From NCBI RefSeq assembly GCF_009763255.1, contig NZ_WSJB01000022.1, positions 124,001-188,000 of the forward strand: a DNA stretch of 64,000 bases, read 5' to 3'. A program made the position numbers and the translations under genes. Numbering within the stretch: position 1 is the stretch's first letter; each line of letters begins with the position of its first letter. The notes beneath the pieces were generated by a model. It searched no databases and had not been told where the DNA came from. It was given only the letters and a program-made list of their open reading frames with translations. This DNA is from Bordetella sp. 02P26C-1 (lineage in GTDB: Bacteria > Pseudomonadota > Gammaproteobacteria > Burkholderiales > Burkholderiaceae_B). Below, in pieces: positions 3,373-17,390 of the stretch.

Positions 3373-4428
3373 CTAGACCACCCGCGCCCTGCCCTGCCTT
3401 CTTCCGCCCCTCTTTGTCTGCATGAACGCGGCCATTGCCTGTGACTCGCGCTCGGGACTGGCCTGGGATTCCTGTGCGAAATATTCCGCCGTACGAGCAA
3501 TGCCCTCTCTTGGCGGCACCTTCGGCGTCCAGTCCAGGTATTGTTGGGCCAACGAAATATCGGGGCAGCGATGGGCAGGATCGTCCACGGGCAGATCACG
3601 GAAAACTATGGGAACTTGCGCCCCGGTGCAAGCCCGCACCAGATCGGCTATCTCCAACATCGATAGCTCGGCCGGATTGCCAAGGTTAATGGGCTGCGTC
3701 ATGGCCGAAGGGCTTTCCATGAGCCGCACCAGGCCGTCAATCAGGTCATCGACATAACAGAACGAACGGGTCTGTGTGCCGTCGCCGTAGACGGTCAGTG
3801 GCTGACCCGCCAGCGCTTGGACAATAAAGTTCGATACGACCCGCCCGTCGTTGGGCGACATGTTTGGACCATAGGTGTTAAAGATGCGCGCGATTTTCAC
3901 CTCTACGCCCTCGGTGTGCGCGTACTCGGTGCAGATCGTTTCCGCACAGCGCTTGCCTTCGTCGTAGCAGGCTCGTGGGCCGACAGGGTTCACATGACCC
4001 CAGTACTGTTCTTGTTGCGGATGCTGCAGAGGATCACCGTAGACTTCACTAGTGGATGCCTGTAGCAGGCGCGCGCCGACGCGTTCCGCCAGCTCCAGCA
4101 TTTGAATAGTGCCCAGCACGCAGGTACGCAGCGTACGCAGCGGGTCGGCTTGATAATGTACGGGCGATGCCGGGCAAGCCAGATGATAGATGCGTGATAC
4201 CTGAAGGTCTGGGATCGGGTCCACCACGTCATGACGCATGACGGTAAGCATCGGGTGCGATGCCAGCGTAGCGAGATTGCTGGCGCGGCCTGTCTGAAAG
4301 TTGTCGAGGCAGATGACTTCCCATCCGTCCCGCAGTAAGCGCGCGCAGAGGTGGGAGCCTAAAAAGCCAGCCCCGCCCGCAACCAGCGCGCGCCCTGCCT
4401 TGTCATCGCTATGTATGCTGTCCATCAT
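3373..4428 (-). CDS. UDP-glucuronate decarboxylase-like NAD-dependent epimerase/dehydratase
   Basis: Extended SDR enzyme of 351 residues. The NAD-binding motif GGAGFLG is at residues 18-24, the active-site STSEVYGDP at 125-133 and the YxxxK pair is Tyr155/Lys159 in YDEGKRCAE; these three blocks are typical of UDP-xylose synthases, which oxidise and decarboxylate UDP-glucuronate. It would supply UDP-xylose or a UDP-4-keto-pentose for the glycan built by the neighbouring transferases. ATG 4428 was chosen because it overlaps the stop of the upstream glycosyltransferase by 4 bases (ATGA). It is the last gene of the cluster. A related UDP-sugar 4-epimerase role cannot be excluded. Confidence 0.8.
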   Translation of the reverse strand: MMDSIHSDDKAGRALVAGGAGFLGSHLCARLLRDGWEVICLDNFQTGRASNLATLASHPMLTVMRHDVVDPIPDLQVSRIYHLACPASPVHYQADPLRTLRTCVLGTIQMLELAERVGARLLQASTSEVYGDPLQHPQQEQYWGHVNPVGPRACYDEGKRCAETICTEYAHTEGVEVKIARIFNTYGPNMSPNDGRVVSNFIVQALAGQPLTVYGDGTQTRSFCYVDDLIDGLVRLMESPSAMTQPINLGNPAELSMLEIADLVRACTGAQVPIVFRDLPVDDPAHRCPDISLAQQYLDWTPKVPPREGIARTAEYFAQESQASPERESQAMAAFMQTKRGGRRQGRARVV

Positions 4429-5399
4429 GCCTGCTCCATTAGTGTGTCGAACACATTGATCCAGTCTCTGACGAACCGGTCCATTCCAAAACGTCGCAGC
4501 GCCGTTTCGCGCGCGGCCTCGCCCCATGCGCGTGCTAGCGCGGGTTCTTCGTTAAGCTGGCGTGCGACTTCGATCAGGCGCTCTACTCGGGTATCTACGT
4601 ACCCTTCCTTTCCATTGGTGATGACGGTGGGTAGCTCAGTGGTGCCAAAGCCTACGATAGGCAAGCCGGAAAGCATGGCCTCGATTAAGGACAAGCCCAG
4701 GCTCGCGTACCGAATGGGGCTGAAGAAGTATCGGTAACGCGAGATAAAGGCAGCGACTTCCATGTTTGGGATCTCGCCGATGCCGCCCAGGCTTTCCGCG
4801 TCCATGCCGATCAAGTCCAGCGGCGTCTTGCGCCTGACCTGCTCGAAAATATCGCGGCCGATGCGGCGCCCGCGTCGCGCGAGATGATTGGCTACCACAA
4901 TGCCGCGCTGCAGGCTTCCGTCGTAACGCGCTTGCGGAACGGGCACGCCGTGTTCGACGACACGCACGGGCATATCGCCACTGTCCCACATCACTGCATT
5001 AAAGGGCGTCACATGCACGAGCAAGCCACGCGAATGGGTGAACGGATGCCGAGTATCGGTGGGGTGCGGCTCGGGGGGATTGTGTTCGAGGTAAATGCTG
5101 GGCAGCGCGCGTTGACGATCTGTCAGCAGTAATTGGGCGTCCGCGAGGTTTTGTTTGTGCTGATACAGGACGCAGTCGAACTCCATCTCGGCCAGTGAGC
5201 TGGCCGGCACCTGGGTCAGATTAGGGGCCCATGGAATGCGCCGGCCCAGCGCACCGTATCCGGGAGCCGAATGGGATAGGCCCGGGACGATGAAGTCGTG
5301 AGGCACATGATGCAGGGCATATAGATAGTTGCCGTGGACATGCCAAGTCAGAACGCGTAGCCGGCGCGCGGGCTGAGGGACATCGGGTTGCGCATTCAT
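4425..5399 (-). CDS. Glycosyltransferase, GT-B fold (GT1/GT4-like)
   Basis: 324 residues from ATG 5399, which overlaps the stop of the preceding GT9 gene by 4 bases. The C-terminal donor-binding half is recognisable (SLGLSLIEAMLSGLPIVGFG, then TVITNGKEGYV), as in GT4-type transferases that use nucleotide sugars. The N-terminal half is less conserved and carries no membrane segment, so the protein should act at the cytoplasmic face of the inner membrane. Donor and acceptor sugars cannot be read from the sequence; context suggests a heptose-containing surface glycan. Confidence 0.75.
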   Translation of the reverse strand: MNAQPDVPQPARRLRVLTWHVHGNYLYALHHVPHDFIVPGLSHSAPGYGALGRRIPWAPNLTQVPASSLAEMEFDCVLYQHKQNLADAQLLLTDRQRALPSIYLEHNPPEPHPTDTRHPFTHSRGLLVHVTPFNAVMWDSGDMPVRVVEHGVPVPQARYDGSLQRGIVVANHLARRGRRIGRDIFEQVRRKTPLDLIGMDAESLGGIGEIPNMEVAAFISRYRYFFSPIRYASLGLSLIEAMLSGLPIVGFGTTELPTVITNGKEGYVDTRVERLIEVARQLNEEPALARAWGEAARETALRRFGMDRFVRDWINVFDTLMEQA

Positions 5400-6466
5400 G
5401 CTGTCCTCTCGATGAATTGCAACTGGGCGCGCGCGGCTGCGTGGACTTCTGCGGCCGACACGGCGAGTGCACAAGGATGGCCAAACGGGCAGGTCTCGTA
5501 GGCGCAGGGCCGACAGGGAACCTCGGCGGCCAACACCCGATGACGGCGGCGATCGAGCGGGGCCCAACGTCGCGTATCACTCCCGCAGGCCACGACCACG
5601 CTGGGGGTTTTCATGGCGGCGGCGATGTGAGAGACGCCTGTGTCATTGCAGACAAGAAGACGGCTGGTTCGCACCAGCGCGGCCATGCTGCCCAAGTGGG
5701 TGCGACCCGACAAGTCCGCGACCGGTACCGCGGCCTGCTGCCGCAGCGCATGTACCATGTCTCGCTCGCCGGCTGTGCCGGTCAAAGCCACGCGCCAACC
5801 TTCTTGATAAAGACCTCGTGCGACGGCGGAAAACCGGCTGATGGGCCAACGGCGGGATGCGAGCCGCGCCCCTGCGTGAATCAACACGATCTTATCTGGA
5901 TCGAGGCTGTGTTCGTCTAGCAGACGCGTCGCTTCGGCTTGGTCGGCCTCGCTGCACGGAAACTCCAAGCCCGACTCGTTCGCATCGTCCAAACCTGCGT
6001 ATCGCAATAGAGCGAGATAGCGTTCGATCTCTGGCAGCGTGTCCGGCCAAAGCATACGTGCGCCGGGCATCTCATCAGACGCCCGCGGCACGAAACCCAC
6101 CCAACGATCCGCACCGAACTGCTCCACGATCGGGTTCGATTGCTGGCCGCTCCCATGCAGTTGGATGGCGACATCCGCCCGCCAATCGCGCATGCGTCGG
6201 TAGAACTCGGGCAAGGCGGCCTCATTCGCCGCCTGCTCTGGAAAGGCAGAGATGCCAGGGAATTCCAGCAGCTCATCGATATAGGCGCTAAACCGTTGAA
6301 CGAATTCCCTCGCTCCCGCTAGCCCCACTAAAGCGATACGAGCTTGGGGAAACGCCCGACGCAAGGCACGAAACGCCGGCACCGAGCAAAGCATGTCGCC
6401 AAGTTGTAATGCCCGAAACACCGCGATGCGCTCGGGCGGACGAGCCGGATCGAGCACGGCGGTCAT
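5396..6466 (-). CDS. Glycosyltransferase family 9 (heptosyltransferase-like)
   Basis: 356-residue GT-B enzyme of the ADP-heptose:LPS heptosyltransferase family. Seen directly: the N-terminal FRALQLGDMLCSVPAFRALR block, the central LIHAGARLASRRWPISRF block that contacts the nucleotide, and CNDTGVSHIAAAM, the GT9 signature near the C-terminus. It begins at ATG 6466 with a 4-base overlap with the upstream GT2 gene. It probably adds a heptose to an LPS-core-like or other acceptor. A second GT9 (9173-10288) lies in the same cluster, which suggests at least two heptose additions. Confidence 0.82.
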   Translation of the reverse strand: MTAVLDPARPPERIAVFRALQLGDMLCSVPAFRALRRAFPQARIALVGLAGAREFVQRFSAYIDELLEFPGISAFPEQAANEAALPEFYRRMRDWRADVAIQLHGSGQQSNPIVEQFGADRWVGFVPRASDEMPGARMLWPDTLPEIERYLALLRYAGLDDANESGLEFPCSEADQAEATRLLDEHSLDPDKIVLIHAGARLASRRWPISRFSAVARGLYQEGWRVALTGTAGERDMVHALRQQAAVPVADLSGRTHLGSMAALVRTSRLLVCNDTGVSHIAAAMKTPSVVVACGSDTRRWAPLDRRRHRVLAAEVPCRPCAYETCPFGHPCALAVSAAEVHAAARAQLQFIERTA

Positions 6467-7449
6467 ACTGTGCCTCGCTGGAATCGAATGAGGCCGACGA
6501 CGCGCCAGGTGATCGATAGCACCGGTATGCACACCGAAGTAATGAGCAAGTCCGCCACGTCGCGCAGGGTATGCCGGGTGCCCTGCAGCCGTTTATAGAA
6601 AAACCATCCGGTCAGTACCGCCCAGATTCCTCCCGCAATGCTGGCGATACGCAGATGCCCTAGCAGCGCCAGCAATACTGCCGAGACAAAGGCTGCCGTC
6701 ACGCACAAGTAAAAGCGCGGCAAGTGTTTGCGAATATGCGCGTGGTACAAATCCGGATATTTGCGACGCAGCAACATGTCGAACATCACCTTCTTCTGCA
6801 TGCCGAGCCCTGCTGCAAAGCCGAACGGCCGCACGGGATGCAGCACGCGCGCCGCCGGTGCCCGCTCGATGCGATAGCCGTGCTTCAGCAAGGCGAAGTG
6901 CAGGTCCGAATCCTCGCGCCACGCCATCGTGTAGCGCGTGTCGAAGCCGCCCACATCGACTAACGCGGAGCGGCGCACGAACAGGTTGGCGGTGATGAAT
7001 TCCGATCGCGTCAGGCCAGCCGCGTCACGCTCATAATCGGTGGGCGGATTCGGCAACGGCATCTCGGTGACGCCCGTCACAGCGGCCACGCCGGCGGTCA
7101 TGGCCTGCAGCCCCTGTCCAAGCCAGTCGGGAGCTGGGATGGTGTCGTCGTCAGTGAACGCGATGATCTCGCCGTGTGCGGCCTGCCAGCCGCGGTTTCG
7201 CGCACCCGCGGGCCCCTGTGTATCCGCTACCGCAATGTAGCGCATGCGTGGTGCACTCGGGTGGTGCCGGGGCCACTCATCGACGAGCCGCCGCGTGGTG
7301 TCGTGGCAGCCGTCGTCACAGACGATGATCTCGAAACTGTCGCGTGGAAAGTGCTGCGCAGAAAGTGCCTCCAGACAGCGCGTCAGGAGATCCATGCGCC
7401 GATAGGTCGGCACCACCACGGAAACGAGAGGCACGGGCACAGCGTTCAT
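6463..7449 (-). CDS. Glycosyltransferase family 2, membrane-anchored
   Basis: 328 residues. The GT-A nucleotide-sugar site is clear: SVVVPTYRRMDLL at the N-terminus, CDDGCHD, the metal-binding FTDDDTIPAP and an acceptor-side WREDSDLHFALLKHG block. Residues about 248-290 form two hydrophobic segments (VTAAFVSAVLLALLGH and ASIAGGIWAVLTGWFF), so the enzyme is likely held at the inner membrane. The start at 7449 overlaps the carbamoyltransferase stop by 4 bases. The membrane anchor would fit work on a lipid-linked acceptor; the donor sugar is unknown. Confidence 0.8.
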   Translation of the reverse strand: MNAVPVPLVSVVVPTYRRMDLLTRCLEALSAQHFPRDSFEIIVCDDGCHDTTRRLVDEWPRHHPSAPRMRYIAVADTQGPAGARNRGWQAAHGEIIAFTDDDTIPAPDWLGQGLQAMTAGVAAVTGVTEMPLPNPPTDYERDAAGLTRSEFITANLFVRRSALVDVGGFDTRYTMAWREDSDLHFALLKHGYRIERAPAARVLHPVRPFGFAAGLGMQKKVMFDMLLRRKYPDLYHAHIRKHLPRFYLCVTAAFVSAVLLALLGHLRIASIAGGIWAVLTGWFFYKRLQGTRHTLRDVADLLITSVCIPVLSITWRVVGLIRFQRGTV

Positions 7450-9185
7450 CGCGGCTTTTCAACCAAATAAGAGCCAATCACGAGCGCGTCTAACGGCGAA
7501 CTCCAGAAACTCTCGACCGCATCGCGGGGCGTACATACGACCGGTTCGCCACGCGTGTTGAACGAGGTGTTCACCAAGACGGGTACGCCAGTACGCTGCT
7601 CGAACGCGGCGAGCAGGTCGTAATAGCGTTCGTTCTGATCGCGGCGGATCGTTTGCACGCGAGCGGTGCCGTCGATATGGCGCACGGCCGGGATCTGCTG
7701 CGCGCGATGCGGCAATACGTCGTAGACAAACAGCATGAACGGCGCACAGATCGAGGCCGCCCCGCGTCCATCGAACCATTGCACCGCGCGCTCCTCCATC
7801 ACCACCGGCGCGACCGGGCGGAAATCTTCGCGGTCTTTCAGGCCGTTCAGCCGCGCTTGCATGGAGCTGTCGATGGGGGAGGCCAAGATCGAGCGCGCGC
7901 CCAGCGCACGCGGTCCAAACTCCATACGTCCTTGGAACCACCCCAGGACCTTGTTATCGGCCAATAACTCCGCCGCCTCGTCGGCCACGTTCTCGAGTTT
8001 GCGATAGTTCAGGTGCGATTGATCGAGGAAGCGTTCGATTTCCTCGTCAGAGAATGCGGGGCCCAGATAAGCATGTTCCATCGTCCAGTTGCGTGGGCCC
8101 GCACGGCGTTGATAGTCGACATAGAGCGCCGCGCCTAGCGCGGTGCCTGCATCGCCGGCCGCCGGCTGCACCCAGACTTTTTCAAACGGCCCATCGCGCG
8201 CGATTCTGGCGTTCATCACGCAGTTCAATGCTACCCCGCCCGCCATCGACAGGTTGGACGAGCCGGTTTGACGATGCAGCCATTGGGCCATATGCAAGGC
8301 GGTCTCTTCCAGCACATACTGCAACGAGCTTGCGATGTTTTGATGTTGCTCGGTAAAGGGTTCGCCACGCCGACGCCCTGGACCGAAACGTTCTATCAGC
8401 TTTGCGGGATGCAACGCGTACCCGCCTTCTTCGTCCAAGGTCAAAATCTCGCGGAACTGATCGCGATAGATCGGCTTGCCATAGGAGGCCAACGCCATGA
8501 CCTTGTATTCGTCCGAAGAATGCAGAAAGCCCAGATACCGCGTGACCTCCTCGTAAAGCAACCCGAGTGAATGCGGCAGATCGATCTGCTTGATGCGTTG
8601 ATACCGGCCCTCGTGAAAGTGGCCGTAGCTGGTGGTAGTCCGTTCACCGCGTCCATCGAGCGTGAGCACCGCCGTGTCTTCGAAAGGAGCGGCGAGGAAT
8701 GCGCTGGCCTCGTGCGACAGATGGTGATCGAGATTGACCCATCGGTCCGTGATGTGTTGCAGCGACAACCCGTCCCATCTGGCAGAGGTCAAATGATGCG
8801 GCAAGCCATCCAGCAGCTGCCGCGGCGCATTCACCAGGTAGGATAAAAATAACGCGTCCCAAGGCGACTCCCCGTTCGGGCCGAAACCGGCCTTGGAGGG
8901 CTCGAGTGGCAGTACGACCTCCGGCTCCATATTGCCCGCCGGCATGAGGAGTTTGGGGTTATACGAGTAGACGATATGGTCTACATCGCGCATGCGCACA
9001 CCCGCCTCAGCGAGACAGTAATCAATGGCATGGTACGGCAACTGCCAGGTCGTGAAGGGAACCGGACGCTTACCGTGTTTGATACGGGTAAATCGCTCTT
9101 CCTCGGCGGCAGCGATGACGTGCCCGTCCCGCACCAGCGCGGCCGCGCAATCATGATAGGCGGCATTGATTCCTAGGGTAAGCAT
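7446..9185 (-). CDS. Carbamoyltransferase (NodU/CmcH/TobZ family)
   Basis: 579 residues, full length for O-carbamoyltransferases that use carbamoyl phosphate and ATP to put a carbamoyl group on a sugar or antibiotic hydroxyl. The N-terminal Kae1-like ATPase domain shows LGINAAYHDCAAALV, NLDHHLSHEASAF with the metal-binding His residues, and LSMAGGVALNCVMN; the C-terminal domain has EFGPRALGARSILASP. It overlaps the upstream GT9 gene by 13 bases and the downstream GT2 by 4. Surrounded by glycosyltransferases, it most likely carbamoylates a sugar of the cluster's product rather than a Nod factor or antibiotic. Confidence 0.87.
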   Translation of the reverse strand: MLTLGINAAYHDCAAALVRDGHVIAAAEEERFTRIKHGKRPVPFTTWQLPYHAIDYCLAEAGVRMRDVDHIVYSYNPKLLMPAGNMEPEVVLPLEPSKAGFGPNGESPWDALFLSYLVNAPRQLLDGLPHHLTSARWDGLSLQHITDRWVNLDHHLSHEASAFLAAPFEDTAVLTLDGRGERTTTSYGHFHEGRYQRIKQIDLPHSLGLLYEEVTRYLGFLHSSDEYKVMALASYGKPIYRDQFREILTLDEEGGYALHPAKLIERFGPGRRRGEPFTEQHQNIASSLQYVLEETALHMAQWLHRQTGSSNLSMAGGVALNCVMNARIARDGPFEKVWVQPAAGDAGTALGAALYVDYQRRAGPRNWTMEHAYLGPAFSDEEIERFLDQSHLNYRKLENVADEAAELLADNKVLGWFQGRMEFGPRALGARSILASPIDSSMQARLNGLKDREDFRPVAPVVMEERAVQWFDGRGAASICAPFMLFVYDVLPHRAQQIPAVRHIDGTARVQTIRRDQNERYYDLLAAFEQRTGVPVLVNTSFNTRGEPVVCTPRDAVESFWSSPLDALVIGSYLVEKPR

Positions 9186-10288
9186 GAAATCTCCTGTGGG
9201 CAGGGTGCTTGGGCAGGCGAATGCCCGTCCAAGTTAAGCAACTCCCGTGCCGCAGCGGTGACTTGTTGCGGCGCAACGCCGGTGAGGCATGCGTGATGCC
9301 CTTGCTCGCATACGCTGCGATAGCAGTATTTGCACGGGACGTCCTGATATAGAACTCGCGCCTGCGTTCGCCATGGCGTGTGTTGCGGGTTAGTCAGCGC
9401 GTACATATCCACCACGGGCACCCCGAGCGCAGCCGACAGATGGGCCGGGCCGCTGTTGTTGCAGATCATGACTCCGGCGGCTTCTAACACAGCACCCAGT
9501 TCACCCAGAGTGAGTTGGCCGGATAAATCGGTAAGCCCAGGCAGCATCGCACGACTGCGCTCTAACGCCTGGCTCAGCGCAGGATCCTCGTGCCCGCCTA
9601 ACAACAGTATGCGGCGCCCTTCCCCACGCAGGCCAATCAGCGCTTGCATCAGCATTTCGGCCGGATACCGGCGCGATGCGGCCGTTGCGCCTGCATGCAC
9701 ACCAATCCAGCCGCCTGTTTCGTGGATGCCGCGCGATATCAATTTGCGCCGCAAGGAAATCCGATCCGCGTCGTCAACATGGAACGACATCCGGGTATCG
9801 TCGCACTGCGCCCCAACATGATTCACGAGGTCTAGTTGGCGCTGAACTTCGTGGCGGATCTCGGTGGCAGGTTCGGTTTCCTTTACCCAATCGGAGATAA
9901 GGCGATAAGGGTTTTCGCGGCAGTGCGCGAGCACACGCGGTATGCCGGCTAGATGGCACATCAGCGCCGCAGGCAAGGGACTTTGACTATAGGTTGTGAA
10001 AATGACTGCGGCATCGGGACGTGCGCGGCGCAGGCGCTCGATGATTTCCAAGTCGGCGTGATTCCCGATCGAAGTGTTTTTTACCCATGCCGGGTCGTAG
10101 GCGATGGCGGTATCGACCTCGGGGATATGAGGCGCTAGGCGGGCGCCGGCCTCTGATGTCAATAGCGTCAAGTGTTTCGTGCCAGCCACGCGCAAGGCAC
10201 GCATGGCGGGGGTGCACATCAAAACATCCCCCATATTGTCTAGCCGGATGCAAAGCACATGTTCAACTTCGCTCCAGTCCCAGGACAT
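9173..10288 (-). CDS. Glycosyltransferase family 9 (heptosyltransferase-like)
   Basis: 371 residues from ATG 10288, just 2 bases after the gmhB stop. Family blocks are CIRLDNMGDVLMCTPAMRALR-like at the N-terminus, GVHAGATAASRRYPAEM in the nucleotide-binding part and CNNSGPAHLSAALGVPVVDMY near the end. Such enzymes transfer heptose from ADP-heptose onto LPS inner core or related acceptors at the cytoplasmic membrane. Position directly behind gmhB, which makes an ADP-heptose precursor, supports a heptose donor. A run of Cys/His residues near the C-terminus (CKYCYRSVCEQGHHAC) could bind a metal and also appears in other GT9 proteins of this type. Confidence 0.83.
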   Translation of the reverse strand: MSWDWSEVEHVLCIRLDNMGDVLMCTPAMRALRVAGTKHLTLLTSEAGARLAPHIPEVDTAIAYDPAWVKNTSIGNHADLEIIERLRRARPDAAVIFTTYSQSPLPAALMCHLAGIPRVLAHCRENPYRLISDWVKETEPATEIRHEVQRQLDLVNHVGAQCDDTRMSFHVDDADRISLRRKLISRGIHETGGWIGVHAGATAASRRYPAEMLMQALIGLRGEGRRILLLGGHEDPALSQALERSRAMLPGLTDLSGQLTLGELGAVLEAAGVMICNNSGPAHLSAALGVPVVDMYALTNPQHTPWRTQARVLYQDVPCKYCYRSVCEQGHHACLTGVAPQQVTAAARELLNLDGHSPAQAPCPQEISCLP

Positions 10289-10290
10289 CT

Positions 10291-10881
10291 TCAGGCTTCC
10301 TCCGCCGCTATCGTGGCGGCCATCGCGGCGAGCACCATTCGAGCCGCTGTGTGCAGATCGCCCGCACAGCGGTCTGGCTCGCGCCCCGGACCCATGCGCC
10401 ACTCTGTCTCGTTGCCAACGTCCAGCAGCACGCTGCGGCAACCAGCCAGATGACCGGCTTGCACATCGTCCAAGATGTCACCGATGAACCAGGACGCGTC
10501 CAGATCGATGTTCAATTCGCGAGCGGCGCGCAGGAACAAACCGGGTTGCGGCTTGCGGCAATCACAATTCAAGGCGTACTCGGTCACGACGCCAGCGGGG
10601 TCATGCGGACACCAATAAAACCCGTGTAGCTTTGCGCCCGCTTGCGTGAACATCTCTCCCAGCCGCTCGTGGACTGGCCCTAAGGCATCAGCGGAGAAGT
10701 ACCCGCGTGCCACGCCCGCTTGATTGCTGATCACCACGAGCGGGATGTTCGCGGCGCCCAGGCACGCCAACGCGTCACGGGCATGGGGCGCATACTCCAT
10801 ACGCGCCGGGTCCACGTTATAAGGAACATCACGCAAGATCGTGCCGTCCTTATCCAGAAACACGGCCGGCCTCAAGGCCAT
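10291..10881 (-). CDS. gmhB: D-glycero-D-manno-heptose-1,7-bisphosphate 7-phosphatase
   Basis: HAD-IIIA phosphatase of 196 residues, the family's usual size. The nucleophile and acid/base are Asp10 and Asp12 in FLDKDGT, and the zinc site is Cys91-x-His93 with Cys106-x-Cys108 (CPH...CDCRKPQPG), typical of GmhB. It removes the 7-phosphate from heptose bisphosphate on the way to ADP-heptose (or GDP-heptose in the alpha series). The start lies 10 bases inside the upstream SDR gene and the stop 2 bases before a GT9 gene. HldA/HldE, GmhA and HldD are not in the window. The anomer it prefers is not decided by these motifs. Confidence 0.9.
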   Translation of the reverse strand: MALRPAVFLDKDGTILRDVPYNVDPARMEYAPHARDALACLGAANIPLVVISNQAGVARGYFSADALGPVHERLGEMFTQAGAKLHGFYWCPHDPAGVVTEYALNCDCRKPQPGLFLRAARELNIDLDASWFIGDILDDVQAGHLAGCRSVLLDVGNETEWRMGPGREPDRCAGDLHTAARMVLAAMAATIAAEEA

Positions 10882-11600
10882 GATGTCTCCTTCATGGGTA
10901 AGACCATGACTTCCGGCACGACAGTTTCGGGCGGTTGCGTCAGCACAAAGCGCACGGCGCGCGCTACGTTGGCCGGATCCTGCAGGGTGCCGGCGTCAAT
11001 GTCCGGGAAGCGATCGAGCAGAAACGGCGTGCGCATACCCCCAGCCACGACGGCGCTGACTTTCAGGCCCTTGCCCCGTAGCTCCGCGTGCAACGCGTGC
11101 GACAGACCCATCAATCCCCACTTGCTGGCGTGATAGGCGCTAGCGTTGGGCCACGCACGACGGGCAGCCGTCGAGGCGATGTTGACGATATGGCCTCCGG
11201 GGCTGAGGTGGTCCTTACCCAGCTTGGCCATCAGAAACGGACCCGTGAGATTGGTGCGCAGCACACGCTCCCACACGTCGGTGTCGAGTTCATCAATCGG
11301 CGCGGTCACATCGATGCCCGCATTGTTGACGATCGCATCGAGCTTGCCGAATTGCGCGACGACCGCTTCCATCGTGCGGCGCACATCGTCGGCCACGCCC
11401 ACGTCCATACTGCAAGGCATGATGTTCGCGCCTTCGTCGCGCAGACGCTGCGCCGCGGTTTGTGCACGTTGTTCATGGATGTCGGCAAGTGCGACTTTGG
11501 CGCCCTCTTTTGCCAACATTTCACATATCGCCGCGCCCAGGCCGCTGCCGCCTCCCGTCACCAGCACCACCCGGCCTTCCAGCGTTTCGAAATCGTGCAT
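10872..11600 (-). CDS. Classical SDR oxidoreductase in the glycan cluster
   Basis: 242 residues with a complete classical short-chain dehydrogenase core: TGGGSGLG at 15-22, NNAG at 92-95, Ser143, Tyr156 and Lys160 (YHASK). It should bind NAD(P)(H) and oxidise or reduce an alcohol/ketone. Placement between a GT4 gene and gmhB, overlapping gmhB by 10 bases, suggests it modifies a sugar or sugar nucleotide, for instance a deoxy- or keto-heptose, but that is inference. Sequence alone would equally allow a fatty-acid or polyol substrate. Confidence 0.8.
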   Translation of the reverse strand: MHDFETLEGRVVLVTGGGSGLGAAICEMLAKEGAKVALADIHEQRAQTAAQRLRDEGANIMPCSMDVGVADDVRRTMEAVVAQFGKLDAIVNNAGIDVTAPIDELDTDVWERVLRTNLTGPFLMAKLGKDHLSPGGHIVNIASTAARRAWPNASAYHASKWGLMGLSHALHAELRGKGLKVSAVVAGGMRTPFLLDRFPDIDAGTLQDPANVARAVRFVLTQPPETVVPEVMVLPMKETSWP

Positions 11601-11612
11601 GTTGAGACTCCT

Positions 11613-12884
11613 TTAAGCTGCGATTTGCGCGGAGGGGCGAGCCACGTTGGTGACGCCGACCCCCATGCGTTGATAGACAGACAGAAGATCCTGCCCCACA
11701 CGCTGCCAGGTGTAGAGGCGTTTCGCGCGCAAGCGCCCGGCTCTGCCCATGCGCTCACGCAGGACGTGGTTCGAGGCCAGCTGCGCGAGCTTTTCTCCCA
11801 GACGATCGGGATCTTTCGCGGGGACCAGGAAGCCCGTCTTGCCGTCGACCACTGTCGTACGAATCCCACCCGTATCGGATCCGATCACCGGCAGTCCGCA
11901 CGCCATGGCTTCCACGGGGGTAATTCCAAACGGCTCATACCAGGGGGTGGTCACGAAGACATCGCTCGCGCTGTAGTACTTGGAGAGATCCGTGCGATTG
12001 CGGCGCCCGACGAATTGCACCCAAGGCGTCACGCCTTCGGCTTCGGCGATCCGACGCAAACGGCCGATCTCCGGGGTGGCTCGCTCGCATGGCTCTTCCG
12101 AGTTTCCACCCACGACCAGCAGACGGGCGTTTATCCCATGCACGTGGTGCAACCGAGCCAGAGAGCGAATGACGTTATCGACCCCTTTGCGAGGCACCAT
12201 GCGGCCGAGCTGCAGCATGGTGAATACATCATCATCCAATCCCAGCTGCGCGCGCATCGCTTGTTTCGGCAGTGGCTTCATTTCGCTGGCGTCATAGCCA
12301 CAAGGCACGATCTCGATACGACGCGGATCGGCGGCATACAGGTCGATCAGGTCGCGACGATCCTGCGGGCATTCGGCGATGATGCAGTCTGCATGACGGA
12401 CGATTTCCTCTTCGATGGCGAAACGGCTGTCTGGAAATTGATCCGCTTCTTGCTGGTATTGGCGGCGGACCTTGCCCAGGGCGTGGAACGTCACCACCAG
12501 AGGGACGCCATGTCGCTGGGCCACGGGCAGCGCGGCCAGCGCTGACATAAAGAAATTCGCATGAATGACGTCGTACGAGCGCACTTGCCGCGCAAAGTAA
12601 CGCTGCATGTAAGTGCTGAAGTCTTCCATGTAGGGCAGCATCTGCTCTTTGGGAAGGAAAGACGCCGGGCCGGCGGGGACGTGGACGATCTTGATGCCAT
12701 CGCCCCAAGGCTGCTCCTCGGGCAATAGAGGATTGTCTTTGCGCGTGAAGACGTCGACCTGAACGCCCGCGCGCGCCAGTTGGCGCGCGACTTGGGCCAC
12801 ATAAACGTTTTGTCCGCCGCTATCGACGCTGCCGGCGCAAGCAAGCGGGGACGCGTGCTCGCTGATCAGGGCGATTTTTCTCAT
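11613..12884 (-). CDS. Glycosyltransferase family 4 (MshA/sucrose-phosphate-synthase-like)
   Basis: 423 residues from ATG 12884, which has a GGAG ribosome-binding site 7 bases upstream; an upstream in-frame extension to 12992 lacks one. The N-terminus (ISEHASPLACAGSVDSGGQNVYV) matches the GGQNVYV donor loop of the MshA/sucrose-synthase branch, and the C-terminal domain has the EX7E-type block WYEPFGITPVEAMACGLPVIG. It transfers a sugar from a nucleotide donor with retention of configuration. It is separated from the fusion ABC gene by 167 bases, the only large gap in the cluster, so a second promoter may sit there, though I see no clear -35/-10 pair. Confidence 0.82.
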   Translation of the reverse strand: MRKIALISEHASPLACAGSVDSGGQNVYVAQVARQLARAGVQVDVFTRKDNPLLPEEQPWGDGIKIVHVPAGPASFLPKEQMLPYMEDFSTYMQRYFARQVRSYDVIHANFFMSALAALPVAQRHGVPLVVTFHALGKVRRQYQQEADQFPDSRFAIEEEIVRHADCIIAECPQDRRDLIDLYAADPRRIEIVPCGYDASEMKPLPKQAMRAQLGLDDDVFTMLQLGRMVPRKGVDNVIRSLARLHHVHGINARLLVVGGNSEEPCERATPEIGRLRRIAEAEGVTPWVQFVGRRNRTDLSKYYSASDVFVTTPWYEPFGITPVEAMACGLPVIGSDTGGIRTTVVDGKTGFLVPAKDPDRLGEKLAQLASNHVLRERMGRAGRLRAKRLYTWQRVGQDLLSVYQRMGVGVTNVARPSAQIAA

Positions 12885-13051
12885 AAGAAAGCTCCGTTTA
12901 GACCTAGCGCGTGGCAAGTGACATGCGCCGGTGCCCTGATGCAAAGCAAGTCGCGTGCCGCGCCGGCCGTGGGCGAGGCATTGCGTTTTCAAGGGTGATG
13001 CGGCACTTCTTACTTCTCCGGTAAGTACGACGGGATGAACAATCCCCCGCT

Positions 13052-15781
13052 CTAATGCTTAGTTACATCCGAGCGCGCCGCCGATCCGCCCGGCAAGAGC
13101 GCGCTGATGGTGGTCAGTAGTTCGGGCGCGTTCACGGGTTTGGCCAGGTGCACCTGAAAGCCCGCCAGCAAGGTACGAAGTCGGAATTCCGGCTCTGCGA
13201 AGCCCGATAGCGCAATGGCGGGCAATCGGTGGGCCAGCGTCGCGCCGCGTTCGGCTTCCAGCGCACGCAACCTTGCGACGACTTCGTAGCCATCCATATC
13301 GGCCATCGACAAATCGCACACCAACACATCCGGCCATTGATCCGTGGGCATCGCCTGAAACGCCGCCAGCGCCTGCGCGCCGCCGCCGTACGCTGCGATC
13401 GTCGCGCCGCTATCGCGCAGCACCTCCGCGACGACCTCGCGCGCTTCGTCTTGGTCGTCGATCAACATCACTTTGACACCCTGCAAATCGGATCTGAGGC
13501 TATCCTGCCGTTTGGGATGGGGTTCGATCGCACGGATCGGAAAGTCCGCAGACAGCACCATTCCCCCCGCGGAAGCCGGGGCGAGATTGAAGGTCCCCCC
13601 TTGACGCTGGACCTGCGCGGCGAGTTGCGCGGGATCCAAGTTAGCGGCCTGCTGGATCGCGTCGGGCGCGTGTAACGGCGGGCTTGACGCCATGTCACTA
13701 CGGCCGTCCGTGACCGCCAGATGTGCCATCGGTCCATGACGCTGTAACCGGATTTCGATTCGGCCGCCCGCTGGCGTGACGGCGATGGCATGCGCGCATA
13801 AATCCCAGACGAGCTGTTGTAAACGGCTCGGGTCGCCGGTGATGCGCGCTGCCTCCGCGCCCACCGTCGTATATAGATTAACCCCGCACTCTGCTGCCAG
13901 CTCGCGAATGGCATCGAGCACGCCTGCCACGAGCGTGACCAGGTTGACCGGCTGACGGGTATAACGATCCTGTCGCTCTTCCAGCTCGGATTGGCGTCGC
14001 TGCAGGGTCCACATTTGCGCATACATACCGTCGCGCTCGAGCAGATCCTCGTGGCGTCCCTGCTCGACGATACGGCCGCGATCCATCACGACGATATTGT
14101 CGGCATGAACAATGGTCGACAGCCGATGCGCAATAATCAAGGTGGTGCGGCCACGCGAAAGACGTTCCAATTCCGCCTGTATCGCGCGCTCGGTTCGGGT
14201 GTCCAGCGCCGAGGTCGCTTCGTCAAACACCATGATCGCGGGGTTCTTGAGAATCGCACGCGCGATGGCGATGCGCTGCCGCTCGCCGCCAGACAGCATG
14301 ATCCCGCGTTCGCCTACCGGCGTCTCGTAGCCGGCCGGCAAACTTTCAATGAAATCGTCCACGCGCGCACCGCGAGCGGCCTGAATAATTTGCTCGCGTG
14401 TGGCGCCCGGTGCGCTATACGCGATGTTGTACGCAATCGTCTCGTTAAAAAGGACCGTGTCCTGCGGCACGATGCCCAGGGACTTGCGAATGCTGCGCAC
14501 ATTCACGTGCCGCAGGTCCTGACCATTGATTCGGATGGAACCCGCCGTGGGGTCGTAGAAGCGAAACAATAGGCGGGCCAGTGTGGACTTGCCCGAACCG
14601 CTGCCGCCCACCACCGCGACGGTGGAACCTGCTGGCACGGTCAAGTCTATATCCCATAGCACTTGTCGCCCGGGCTCATAGCCAAAGTTCACGCCTTCGA
14701 AACGGATCTCGCCTGCGCCTGGGTCCAAGGCAGGCAAGGCCTCGTCGTCGCCGGTTTCGGCGGGCATGCGCAATAGATCGCACACCCGCTCCGCGTTGAC
14801 GAACGCCTCCTTTGCCTGGCGGAATATCAAGCCCAAGGTGTTTAGCGGCAAGCACACTTGGATGATGTAGGCATTTACCAGCACCAAATCGCCTACTGTC
14901 ATGCGCGCATCGACCACATGCTGCCCGGCTAGCAACATGACTGTCGCAACCCCGCAGGCGATCACAGCGCTCTGGCCCACATGCAGACGCGACAACGCCA
15001 ACTGATTGCGAATGCCTACGTCTACCCACTGACCCAGTACGCCACCCAGTCTGCGCGTCTCGAGGGCTTCATTCGCATTGAGTTTGACGGCCTCGTAGTT
15101 CAACAGGCTATCAACGATGCGCCCGCTCGCTCGCGAGTCCAGATCGTTCATCTGCCGCTGAAACACGATGCGCTTACGCACCATGATGACGGTGTAGGCG
15201 AAATAACCGGCAAAGGTCGCAGCCATCACCGCGGCGAACCAGGCGCTATAGCCCAGCACCAGAATGACCACCACCGATACCATCTCGACCAGCGTGGGCA
15301 ACAACGTAAACAGCGCCGTGCCCAGCAAGAAGCCTATCCCCGCTGTCCCGCGCTCCACATCCCGCGCGAGCTTGCCCGTTTGCCGCGTGCCATGAAATCG
15401 TGCACCCAGCCGTTGCAACTGCTCGAAGACGCGCAGCGTAAAGTCGGCCACCGCGCGCTGCACGACGCGCGCGAACACGACGTCGCGTAGTTCGGTAAAC
15501 AGGCTGCCCCCAAAGCGAATGACCGCGTAGCCCAAGAGCAAAAACACCGGCAGCACCAGCAAGCCGGGTTCACTGAGTTGATCGACAATGGACTTCAGCA
15601 GGAATGGCACCAGCACCATCAGCAGCTTGGCCACCACGAGGAGCGCCACCGCCGCGCCAGTGCGCGCCCGGTACTCCCACAGCGCCCGCAAGATGGTGCG
15701 CGTCACCTCTTTACGTGCAAAGCCGGTAGACCCGACATCGGCGCTCTTGGCGCCTGCATCGGGATCCGTCGGGCTATTCAT
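13052..15781 (-). CDS. Fusion: ATM1-type ABC exporter + degenerate histidine-kinase ATPase domain + receiver domain
   Basis: 909 residues from ATG 15781 (4-base overlap with the preceding GT2). Residues about 43-315 hold six hydrophobic segments of a half-exporter membrane domain, and the text resembles ATM1/HMT1 exporters (SLLNYEAVK, VNAYIIQVCLPLN). The nucleotide-binding domain is complete: Walker A GGSGSGKST 392-400, Q-loop Gln440, LSGGERQR 496-503, Asp520-Glu521, His552. Residues about 611-749 look like the post-DHp and ATPase part of a hybrid kinase (GDPSRLQQLVWDL, TPAGGRIEI, QGGTF), but there is no phospho-accepting His, the N-box Asn pair is replaced by Asp and His (WDLCAHA, 662-665), and the G1 box is VTDGRSD. 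Residues 768-893 are an intact receiver: Asp775/776, phospho-Asp823, Ser859, Lys881. It probably exports a substrate as a homodimer under phospho-control; the substrate is unknown. Confidence 0.85.
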   Translation of the reverse strand: MNSPTDPDAGAKSADVGSTGFARKEVTRTILRALWEYRARTGAAVALLVVAKLLMVLVPFLLKSIVDQLSEPGLLVLPVFLLLGYAVIRFGGSLFTELRDVVFARVVQRAVADFTLRVFEQLQRLGARFHGTRQTGKLARDVERGTAGIGFLLGTALFTLLPTLVEMVSVVVILVLGYSAWFAAVMAATFAGYFAYTVIMVRKRIVFQRQMNDLDSRASGRIVDSLLNYEAVKLNANEALETRRLGGVLGQWVDVGIRNQLALSRLHVGQSAVIACGVATVMLLAGQHVVDARMTVGDLVLVNAYIIQVCLPLNTLGLIFRQAKEAFVNAERVCDLLRMPAETGDDEALPALDPGAGEIRFEGVNFGYEPGRQVLWDIDLTVPAGSTVAVVGGSGSGKSTLARLLFRFYDPTAGSIRINGQDLRHVNVRSIRKSLGIVPQDTVLFNETIAYNIAYSAPGATREQIIQAARGARVDDFIESLPAGYETPVGERGIMLSGGERQRIAIARAILKNPAIMVFDEATSALDTRTERAIQAELERLSRGRTTLIIAHRLSTIVHADNIVVMDRGRIVEQGRHEDLLERDGMYAQMWTLQRRQSELEERQDRYTRQPVNLVTLVAGVLDAIRELAAECGVNLYTTVGAEAARITGDPSRLQQLVWDLCAHAIAVTPAGGRIEIRLQRHGPMAHLAVTDGRSDMASSPPLHAPDAIQQAANLDPAQLAAQVQRQGGTFNLAPASAGGMVLSADFPIRAIEPHPKRQDSLRSDLQGVKVMLIDDQDEAREVVAEVLRDSGATIAAYGGGAQALAAFQAMPTDQWPDVLVCDLSMADMDGYEVVARLRALEAERGATLAHRLPAIALSGFAEPEFRLRTLLAGFQVHLAKPVNAPELLTTISALLPGGSAARSDVTKH

Positions 15782-16704
15782 CGCGTGTACACGGTGTGCC
15801 GCAGCGTGGGCGCGGATTCTTCGTTCCACACCTCTTCTACACTGCGGCAGACCGGCTGGCAGAGGACTTGCCGGTAACGCGCCACCAGCCACGCTCCCGC
15901 CAAGACATCACGCGCCAGCCGCAGACGGTCTAACCAAGACGCACACTTGGCGAACACTTGAAAACTGCGGCGCAGCGCCATGCCCGCTGGAAATCTCAAC
16001 CATGCCGTCCAAATATCGTTTCTCGCCGTGAGGCTGCGGCGTTGGCGCGCGTCGCGCAGACGCGATGGTCGATGGTGCGTCACCACGTTTGGCGCGAACA
16101 CGATGCGACCGCCCTGCTCCATGATGTCCAACGCCAGCAGCGCTTCTTCGCCACCGATAAAAAACGGCGGCCAATAGCCTCCCGCCTTCCGAAATGCCTC
16201 GGTACGCATCACGCATGCGCCGGCCATAAAGCCGATCAGCTCCGGGCCGACCCCTTCAAAAGAGCGTAGCGGACTCGCCGCCATGATGTCGCAGGCAGGA
16301 TCGCTACGCGCGTCCTCTCCGACCACGATACGTGCGTTCAATACGGTGATGACGGGATGCGCGTCCAGAATATGTGCGGCAATGCTGAGCGAGCTGCCTT
16401 GCCACGCCGTGTCGTCGTCGCAGAATGCGACGTAGGGAGTGCGCACGCGCGCCACTCCCATGTTTCGCCCGGCGGCGCCCAAGTTGCTCGGCGCACGCAC
16501 GACTTCGACATGAGGATATTCGGCATGGACGCGCTCGCCGGTTCCGTCCGTGCTGGCGTTGTCCACCACAATGATCCGATAAGGGAGCGATGCGCCATCA
16601 CGCAGCCGTGTCAGGCGCGCGAGCGTGGCGCAGAGATCTTCCTTGCGGTTATAGGTCAGTACCACTATGGTCACGCGGGTCGCGTAGGCTTCGTCGGCAA
16701 GCAT
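15778..16704 (-). CDS. Glycosyltransferase family 2
   Basis: 308 residues. The GT-A nucleotide-binding and metal motifs are clear: TIVVLTYNRKEDL, NASTDGTGERVHAEYP and FCDDDTAWQ. It has no strong membrane segment. ATG 16704 gives a TGATG one-base overlap with the PIG-L gene; a GTG at 16707 gives a GTGA four-base overlap, and I cannot choose between them firmly. The stop overlaps the ABC fusion start by 4 bases, so both are made from one coupled message. Rhamnosyl- or other hexosyl-transfer is possible; the donor is unknown. Confidence 0.8.
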   Translation of the reverse strand: MLADEAYATRVTIVVLTYNRKEDLCATLARLTRLRDGASLPYRIIVVDNASTDGTGERVHAEYPHVEVVRAPSNLGAAGRNMGVARVRTPYVAFCDDDTAWQGSSLSIAAHILDAHPVITVLNARIVVGEDARSDPACDIMAASPLRSFEGVGPELIGFMAGACVMRTEAFRKAGGYWPPFFIGGEEALLALDIMEQGGRIVFAPNVVTHHRPSRLRDARQRRSLTARNDIWTAWLRFPAGMALRRSFQVFAKCASWLDRLRLARDVLAGAWLVARYRQVLCQPVCRSVEEVWNEESAPTLRHTVYTR

Positions 16705-17390
16705 CACTTGGCCTCCTCATTTAGTGCCAGTGCCCAATAGCCCTCAGGGCGCGCCAAGTCGTCGGGTCGTCGGCCAAATCCGGCGAGCTGGCTGCGATAA
16801 GCCAAGACGGCTTCAACCTTCTGTTGGGACCGCGCGGGCGCGGGTCCACGATGAACGTACACACCGCGAGCCCGGATCTCGAACAATCGCTCTTCGACCA
16901 GTCGGGCTCTCGCGCGATACGGGATGTCCTCATATGCCAGCCACTCTCTGGCGGGAAACGCTTCGATCAATGACAACAGGGTATTGGAGACCCGCACATG
17001 ATCGTCATGAAATAACCCTAGCGGCATGACCACGCGCTGGGGCTGCAGCGCTTGCAGCACATCTATCAGCGTCTGCCGCAATGGTTCCATATGGGGCTGC
17101 CAATCGCTGACATACTGGCTGTCTCGCAACCCCAACTCTTGCCCATCGCACCCGAGAATCGCCAGCGCTCGTCGGTTCTCTTGCAAGCGTTCTGCCATGG
17201 CCTCGCTGGCCGATGCAAACCCACAATTGCGATCCCAGTCCGTCAGGCGCATTGGATCGTCGGGTAGCCCCGTGCATACCGTCACGACAGTGGCGTTCGC
17301 AGTATGCGCGAGCAAATCTCCGCAACTGAACACGGCGTCGTCCAGATGCGGAGAGATGACGGCAACTAAGCCCTTGGCGTCAGCGAGCAC
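16704..17390 (-). CDS. PIG-L family N-deacetylase (LmbE-like)
   Basis: 228 residues from GTG 17390. Zinc-binding residues of the PIG-L fold are visible: His15 and Asp18 in SPHLDDAVFS, and the second block FHDDHVRVSN. Members remove acetyl groups from N-acetylglucosaminyl lipids, mycothiol precursors, antibiotics or bacillithiol precursors. As the first gene of the coupled set, it may deacetylate an N-acetylhexosamine that is then modified. It starts 37 bases after the DUF4142 stop, so it could be read from that gene's promoter. The acetylated substrate is unknown. Confidence 0.83.
   Translation of the reverse strand: MLADAKGLVAVISPHLDDAVFSCGDLLAHTANATVVTVCTGLPDDPMRLTDWDRNCGFASASEAMAERLQENRRALAILGCDGQELGLRDSQYVSDWQPHMEPLRQTLIDVLQALQPQRVVMPLGLFHDDHVRVSNTLLSLIEAFPAREWLAYEDIPYRARARLVEERLFEIRARGVYVHRGPAPARSQQKVEAVLAYRSQLAGFGRRPDDLARPEGYWALALNEEAK

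Follow-up and report, generated by a model that had tools for sequence, protein, structure and literature searches.

The usual targets of two-component signals are transcription or separate partner proteins, and a gene of Bordetella sp. 02P26C-1 raises the question of whether such a signal can instead act on an export pump from within. The gene lies in a stretch of 64,000 nucleotides (contig NZ_WSJB01000022.1, positions 124,001 to 188,000; the window, with positions counted from its first letter). It encodes, in one polypeptide, an ATP-binding cassette (ABC) half-exporter, a segment derived from the catalytic and ATP-binding (CA) domain of a histidine kinase, and a response-regulator receiver. 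The reading favored here, at a probability of about one half, is that a paralogue of the exporter Atm1 has been recruited to export a glycan or glycolipid and is gated by phosphorylation of its own receiver.

The frame is single and open for 909 codons plus the stop (13052-15781) on the minus strand; the preliminary description of this DNA, which gave no strand, had reported the same unbroken 909 residues. An ATG at 15781 shares the bases ATGA with the stop codon of the glycosyltransferase gene just upstream (15778-16707). This overlap fits a start at the ATG (a longer frame begins at a GTG at 15892), and it makes the exporter and the preceding glycosyltransferase genes look like one operon. 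A Pfam search finds ABC_membrane, ABC_tran and Response_reg in the one protein, all above their cut-offs (Response_reg at residues 771-892 scores 62.6 bits against 30.2). The HATPase_c match is restricted to residues 649-693 and falls below its cut-off (18.9 bits against 26.4). The features of the gene are:

13052..15781 (stop included), minus strand: ABC half-exporter / pseudo-HATPase / receiver fusion gene, 909 amino acids, from the frame, Pfam and homologue alignment
14852..15652, minus strand: ABC_membrane, residues 44-310, Atm1-like, with pocket positions Q208 and H267 (Pfam, above cut-off)
14210..14653, minus strand: ABC_tran, residues 377-524 (Pfam, above cut-off)
13511..13969, minus strand: degenerate histidine-kinase ATPase (CA-like) segment, residues 605-757, HisKA not found and without a G1 box (Pfam and tail analyses)
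13106..13471, minus strand: receiver domain, residues 771-892 (Pfam Response_reg, above cut-off)
13313..13315, minus strand: codon of the predicted phospho-acceptor Asp823 (D in 72 of 74 homologues)

Is the fusion real? Counting the window protein, 74 distinct full-length fused proteins are found in Burkholderiales. A contig scan confirmed 111 relatives, from which 80 loci were kept for counting; 42 of these hold a full-length fused frame of 875-978 amino acids, and the others are one broken fusion (L052) and 37 stand-alone exporters, two of which are cut by contig ends. With one-frame fusions in 42 of 80 loci and in 74 distinct proteins, the arrangement is not due to chance or artefact. The preliminary description had named consistently separate homologues as the mark of a frame or assembly error joining two genes; such an error has a negligible probability, being ruled out by the identical domain order in 74 distinct proteins from many assemblies, and no point in its favor was found. 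Fused records come from Bordetella, Achromobacter, Paraburkholderia, Burkholderia, Trinickia, Chitinasiproducens, Hydrogenophaga, Azohydromonas and Propionivibrio.

In 399 genomes sampled from the order, a match reaches the receiver in at least 6, and at least 320 have any match at E 1e-110. Of 369 genomes sampled from the class, 14 match at E 1e-190, a limit that distant versions would escape, and only the window's own genome has a match reaching the tail. Within 200 genomes of the family, the exporter search found the fusion in at least 33, and G410 and G495 bring the total to 35. The G410 copy (L175) is cut by a contig end; it is left out of the protein counts and included among the 35 genomes. 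G495 was first found in a look at six genomes bearing a carbamoyltransferase (a gene of the glycan cluster around the exporter), a bias that was removed by running a profile of the tail over all 200 genomes. Among the matches listed, 34 strong tails (E 3e-79 or better) and the cut G410 give the same 35 genomes, and the next match (3e-66) lies in a 696-residue frame, too short for exporter and tail. The closest tail-profile matches outside fused exporters, again among the matches listed, are frames of 675-696 residues (G502:C1:2636701-2637654, G482:C1:2385943-2386896 and G521:C1:1297515-1298450), which are possible kin of the kinase that donated the tail. In G495 itself the fused frame of 895 residues (L204 / L209, G495:C9:10847-13390) has a match that skips ABC ATPase residues 420-458, the Q-loop included. 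Plasmids of Paraburkholderia, Caballeronia, Burkholderia and Cupriavidus also carry the fusion: of the 18 records that match, 8 span 80% of the protein or more (one stops at residue 795), and all five of these eight that have a listed feature annotate it with a general ABC name.

What kind of exporter is it? The protein has one membrane domain and one ATPase domain with catalytic motifs, as befits a half-exporter. Walker A Lys398, Q-loop Gln440, signature Ser497-Gly498 and Walker B Asp520 and Glu521 lie within the ABC_tran stretch, with D-loop Asp527 and H-loop His552 just past it. These eight positions are kept in 74 of 74 proteins, in line with the complete ABC ATPase described earlier. Among solved structures, the closest by sequence are ABCB25 (AtAtm3) and a fungal Atm1, followed at a short distance by the bacterial ATM1-type heavy metal exporter 4mrn and by ABCB1-type proteins. 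E-values in phmmer run from 4e-145 to 3e-142 for 7n58, 7pqx (which we take to be CtAtm1) and 4mrn, and ABCB19 and P-glycoprotein fall in the same score range. The pocket region at E 1e-20 matches only ABCB7, ABCB25, ATM1 and ABCB6, so that the earlier assignment of an ATM1-type membrane domain agrees with both the overall and the pocket comparison. The protein scores 403.8 bits against the NCBIfam MsbA equivalog cut-off of 602, and 180.5 bits against the PglK cut-off of 1000.

The pocket itself has changed. AtAtm3 R328 and N387 are among eight conserved residues of the glutathione pocket named in PMC9000953. The equivalent of R328 is Q208 in 73 of 74 fused proteins and that of N387 is H267 in 72 of 74, whereas stand-alone exporters keep Arg and Asn at these positions (53 of 53 each); for this contrast 74 fused proteins were set against 53 stand-alone ones, after 18 rows had been dropped as distant, paralogous or partial. 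The fused exporter thus falls short of the full pocket of the Atm1 family, and since six of the eight residues are kept, a thiol substrate is still conceivable.

Two unfused exporters, L123 and L124, share the Q208 and H267 changes. In a careful tree of 48 chosen rows, they form with 26 fused proteins a clade (support 100/100) that excludes the 20 other stand-alone exporters. A branch with support 87/55 in this tree and 86 in a quick tree (75 of 116 rows) has the fused set on one side; a single fusion event would fit both trees, the branch support not being strong. L123 (9862-11697) and L124 (7973-9895) lie within similar glycan clusters, and they may either predate the fusion or have lost the tail. 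By match counts, a second exporter of the Atm1 kind occurs in 29 of at least 33 fused genomes; the fused exporter is therefore as a rule an extra copy, which would have a new task. In the window's genome the next-best exporter match is at 36%. Judged from sequence, the fused exporters form a separate clade that is tied to a glycan cluster and is not the housekeeping Atm1; the housekeeping role is made unlikely by that separate position, the glycan context and the two pocket changes.

The glycan cluster, which the preliminary description does not mention, occupies positions 3373-17390 of the window with every gene on the minus strand. Around the exporter it comprises:

16704..17390, minus strand: PIG-L deacetylase
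15778..16707, minus strand: family 2 glycosyltransferase whose stop overlaps the exporter start (ATGA)
11613..12992, minus strand: family 4 glycosyltransferase, MshA-like below the family cut-off (MshA 287 bits against 462.5)
10872..11600, minus strand: short-chain dehydrogenase
10291..10881, minus strand: HAD phosphatase, GmhB-like below cut-off
9173..10441, minus strand: family 9 (heptosyltransferase-like) glycosyltransferase
7446..9185, minus strand: carbamoyltransferase
6463..7449, minus strand: family 2 glycosyltransferase
5396..6532, minus strand: second family 9 glycosyltransferase
4425..5567, minus strand: group 1 glycosyltransferase
3373..4527, minus strand: NAD-dependent epimerase/dehydratase

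At least three cluster genes adjoin 61 of 73 fused exporters versus 0 of 50 stand-alone loci, a count from which L123 and L124 (cluster present, fused clade) were set aside and in which some loci are short-flanked or of far lineages. Exporter and cluster also co-occur where they are not adjacent. In 8 of the 12 poorly linked fused loci (L157, L158, L159, L163, L164, L167, L176 and L177) the carbamoyltransferase lies elsewhere in the genome, and in five genomes (G447, G400, G411, G414 and G473) other cluster genes stand beside this unlinked carbamoyltransferase. Searched at E 1e-150, the carbamoyltransferase is present in 40 of the 200 family genomes, namely in 35 of 35 with the fusion and 5 of 165 others, and none of the 160 genomes lacking it has the fusion among the matches listed (Fisher 5e-34, kinship between genomes ignored). 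It occurs without the fusion in G438, G479, G520, G524 and G563, two of which are 70 and 86% complete. That the two are found together even when they are not neighbors is the best evidence for a joint function of pump and cluster.

Wzx, Wzy and initiating-transferase families are absent from the Pfam hits of ten cluster proteins, so that the product would be a short glycan or glycolipid. The pairing of an MshA-like glycosyltransferase with a PIG-L deacetylase is familiar from mycothiol synthesis, and here the MshA-like family 4 enzyme (11613-12992) shares the cluster with such a deacetylase. A broken exporter copy in a Paraburkholderia symbiont record (L052) still has glycan genes adjoining it.

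The protein could alternatively be an exporter of thiols or metal conjugates of the Atm1 kind that merely happens to lie beside a glycan cluster. ABCB25 (AtAtm3) and the ATM1-type heavy metal exporter 4mrn are among its closest solved structures, and six of the eight pocket residues named in PMC9000953 are kept. This explanation is quite improbable in view of the replacement of two pocket residues by Q208 and H267, the carbamoyltransferase in 35 of 35 fused genomes even where unlinked, and the second such exporter in 29 of at least 33 fused genomes, though the window's genome has none above 36%.

Does the tail have the means to respond to a signal, or to produce one? Two alignments were used, A1 with 60 of the 74 proteins and A2 with 47 of them (L015, L029 and L036 are absent from A2). 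In the window protein only positions 1-45 of the 111 of the HATPase profile are matched, a His replaces the N-box Asn, and DGR stands where the G1 box (DxGxG) belongs. HisKA was not found by Pfam in the window protein up to E 10, nor, up to E 0.01, in the 47 tails (of 74) that were scanned from residue 604; searched singly at this limit, these 47 tails gave Response_reg in 47, HATPase_c in 27 and HisKA in 0. The N-box Asn is retained in 43 of 74 proteins and GxG-type remnants are seen in 11 of 74. DxGxG occurs in 2 of 74 (L017 and L041), located in the linker to the receiver and not at the place of G1. A profile of the tail matches CA domains and receivers of kinases of known structure, including ZraS, DivL, RetS and a hybrid kinase. 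The protein does not show the set of features that defines a hybrid histidine kinase, namely HisKA with its phospho-acceptor His and the N, G1 and G2 boxes. Judged by these motifs, the middle segment is the decayed CA domain of a kinase and hence a pseudo-ATPase, and the fusion would for that reason not be expected to phosphorylate itself in the usual way; an active kinase was rejected as the motifs are absent. The kinase-like ATPase domain of the preliminary description was therefore right as to kinase descent and overstated as to an ATPase, given a partial, sub-threshold HATPase_c match and the lost DxGxG.

The receiver has fared better. The window protein has the two acidic residues, phospho-Asp, Ser/Thr and Lys of the family (D775, D776, D823, S859 and K881), as noted earlier, and all five are complete in 69 of 74 proteins, with D823 in 72 of 74. 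The fusion is under purifying selection, tail included. In 22 non-overlapping pairs of about 80-96.5% identity, several of which (window versus L009 included) have dS >1 and are rough, some saturated, counted-site dN/dS ranges over 0.02-0.16 in the ABC part, 0.02-0.28 in the CA part and 0.03-0.37 in the receiver; for the tail it is below 0.4 in 22 of 22 pairs. Selection is weaker than on the pump for the CA part in 20 of 22 pairs and for the receiver in 19 of 22. A tail kept by selection could also serve as a docking or stability domain that works independently of phosphorylation, tethering the exporter to glycosyltransferases or to a site in the cell, the receiver residues being kept for the fold. 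The CA part is degenerate throughout and 5 of 74 proteins retain the tail with no intact receiver site, as such a role would allow; the full set of key residues in 69 of 74 proteins and D823 in 72 of 74 speak against it and leave it unlikely.

Which signal might reach the receiver? Relatives of a receiver-bearing NtrC-type regulator (E 1e-140) occur in 35 of 35 fused genomes versus 42 of 165 others, and in 16 of the 35 the regulator lies within 16 kb of the carbamoyltransferase. Across 76 loci, sigma-54 activators are near 11. Five loci from other genomes have a pair of such activators within the cluster, and a sixth (L223) has a pair before the exporter gene; these six loci were picked for closeness of regulator and carbamoyltransferase and are not a fair sample of linkage. 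In the pairs scanned by Pfam (L188 and L183) one member has a receiver and the other does not. Between the exporter and family 4 glycosyltransferase genes of the window lies the following site:

12945..12960, minus strand: sigma-54-type promoter-like site (pattern match)

The window has three sigma-54-type sites versus 2.7 expected, which alone is not above chance. Such a site is found after the exporter gene in 18 of 73 loci and before it in 7 of 74, compared with 117 of 2960 random stretches of equal length (Fisher 1e-9 for the site after the gene, a pattern and place chosen after the first hits, with 17 of the 18 loci near relatives of the window's kind).

BceAB-type transporters report to BceS-like kinases, and the tail of the fusion might likewise report rather than control: the exporter would sense flux or product, and its receiver would draw phosphate from, or dock to, the kinase that sets cluster transcription. 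In favor of such a role are the NtrC-type regulator in all 35 fused genomes of the 200 and the sigma-54-like site that comes after the exporter gene in 18 of 73 loci. It is doubtful all the same, as no conserved adjoining kinase gene was found and the regulator is also present in 42 genomes lacking the fusion.

Two candidates for the partner kinase were considered. A hybrid kinase of the window's own genome, with two stretches each of HisKA, HATPase_c and receiver, adjoins an NtrC-type regulator about 40 kb from the exporter (L197, 1196-4915 and 5474-6892). This kinase (G000:C13) was rejected as the partner, as it matches 12 of 200 genomes and just 5 of these have the fusion. A frame of 521-672 residues shared by six loci was considered as a kinase inside the cluster; the three that were scanned are family 5 glycosyltransferases. 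These glycogen-synthase-like enzymes lie near sigma-54 activators (L218 13574-15376, L219 15536-17554 and L223 4755-6320), with a similar frame in six of six loci.

How, then, could the fusion work as a pump gated by its own receiver? A duplicate of Atm1 would have become a homodimeric ABC half-exporter whose substrate, to be exported or flipped, is what the adjoining cluster makes: probably a short glycan or glycolipid of heptose type, carbamoylated and partly de-N-acetylated. Its C-terminus would be the CA and receiver end of a former hybrid histidine kinase, from which the histidine-bearing dimerisation part has gone and in which the CA motifs have been lost. Because the junction falls after the ABC ATPase and before the CA part, the exporter's own dimer is likely to replace the kinase dimer stem, and the CA remnant may act as a spacer or docking piece. 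Asp823 would be phosphorylated by a kinase or phosphotransfer protein whose gene lies elsewhere. Phosphorylated Asp823 would then alter the seating of the receivers on the two ATPase domains, and this change of state would help or hinder closure of the nucleotide-binding domains and so set export activity. Direct switching of export by phosphorylation is plausible on these grounds. The same signaling network could also drive transcription of the cluster via sigma-54 and the NtrC-type regulator. That one signal sets both synthesis and export, through a built-in receiver and a shared phosphorelay, is put forward more tentatively and is somewhat less than an even bet.

A number of observations weigh against phospho-gated glycan export. 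Five proteins (L015, L029, L036, L156 and L161) have lost at least one receiver key residue and yet keep the tail, so that phosphorylation cannot be essential in all members. A partner kinase was found neither in the cluster nor as an own-genome candidate that tracks the fusion, and hybrid kinases are near only 8 of 76 loci (those of L188, L120 and L122 were confirmed by Pfam). It is because of the broken receivers and the missing donor kinase that confidence is held at one half. The NtrC-type regulator is not peculiar to fused genomes, as the 42 others show. As to the glycan link, 12 of 73 fused loci (among them L016, L029, L038 and L120) have at most one adjoining cluster gene, the genomes counted are related to each other, and L123 and L124, unfused members of the fused clade, sit in glycan clusters and have no tail. 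Across the 60 proteins of A1, the six remaining residues of the eight in the glutathione pocket never vary.

Fusion and cluster linkage together suggest that the cell may use a two-component signal to switch the pump protein and not just the pump gene. If so, the family would offer a direct case of post-translational control of export by aspartate phosphorylation, kept by selection across several Burkholderiales families, and a glycan system of common soil and host-associated bacteria that has an exporter and a regulator of its own. Whether a receiver can gate an ABC pump becomes testable with one protein.

The preliminary description knew of no characterised protein with this domain order, and a search of the open-access literature (subscription papers and preprints being outside its scope) likewise found no description of the fusion architecture or of the glycan cluster. 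Known systems resemble it in part. The Atm1-type half-exporters (AtAtm3/ABCB25, fungal and bacterial Atm1) share the domain layout, the catalytic motifs and the PLN.LG...R stretch of transmembrane helix 6, whereas the fusion has a tail of about 300 residues, a pocket whose Arg and Asn are replaced by Q208 and H267, a tie to a glycan cluster and a clade of its own. Hybrid histidine kinases have CA and receiver parts that are similar in order and sequence; in the fusion neither HisKA nor intact CA motifs were detected, and an ABC exporter replaces sensor and stem. MsbA and the PglK-type glycolipid flippases are, like the fused protein by its gene context, half-exporters dedicated to glycans, but the fusion scores below both NCBIfam cut-offs and carries a receiver tail. 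The SLC5-STAC histidine kinases (CrbS and CbrA), as described in PMC9100948, also join a transporter to two-component parts; there a symporter precedes the signaling domain, whereas here a pseudo-ATPase and a receiver come after an ABC exporter. The closest functional parallel is EpsW of Myxococcus, whose phosphorylated receiver, according to PMC12802240, stimulates a polysaccharide pathway after translation via the transferase EpsZ, a precedent for a receiver acting on a glycan enzyme. EpsW is described there as a separate single-domain protein that acts on a phosphoglycosyl transferase; in the Burkholderiales fusion the receiver is a domain of the exporter itself.

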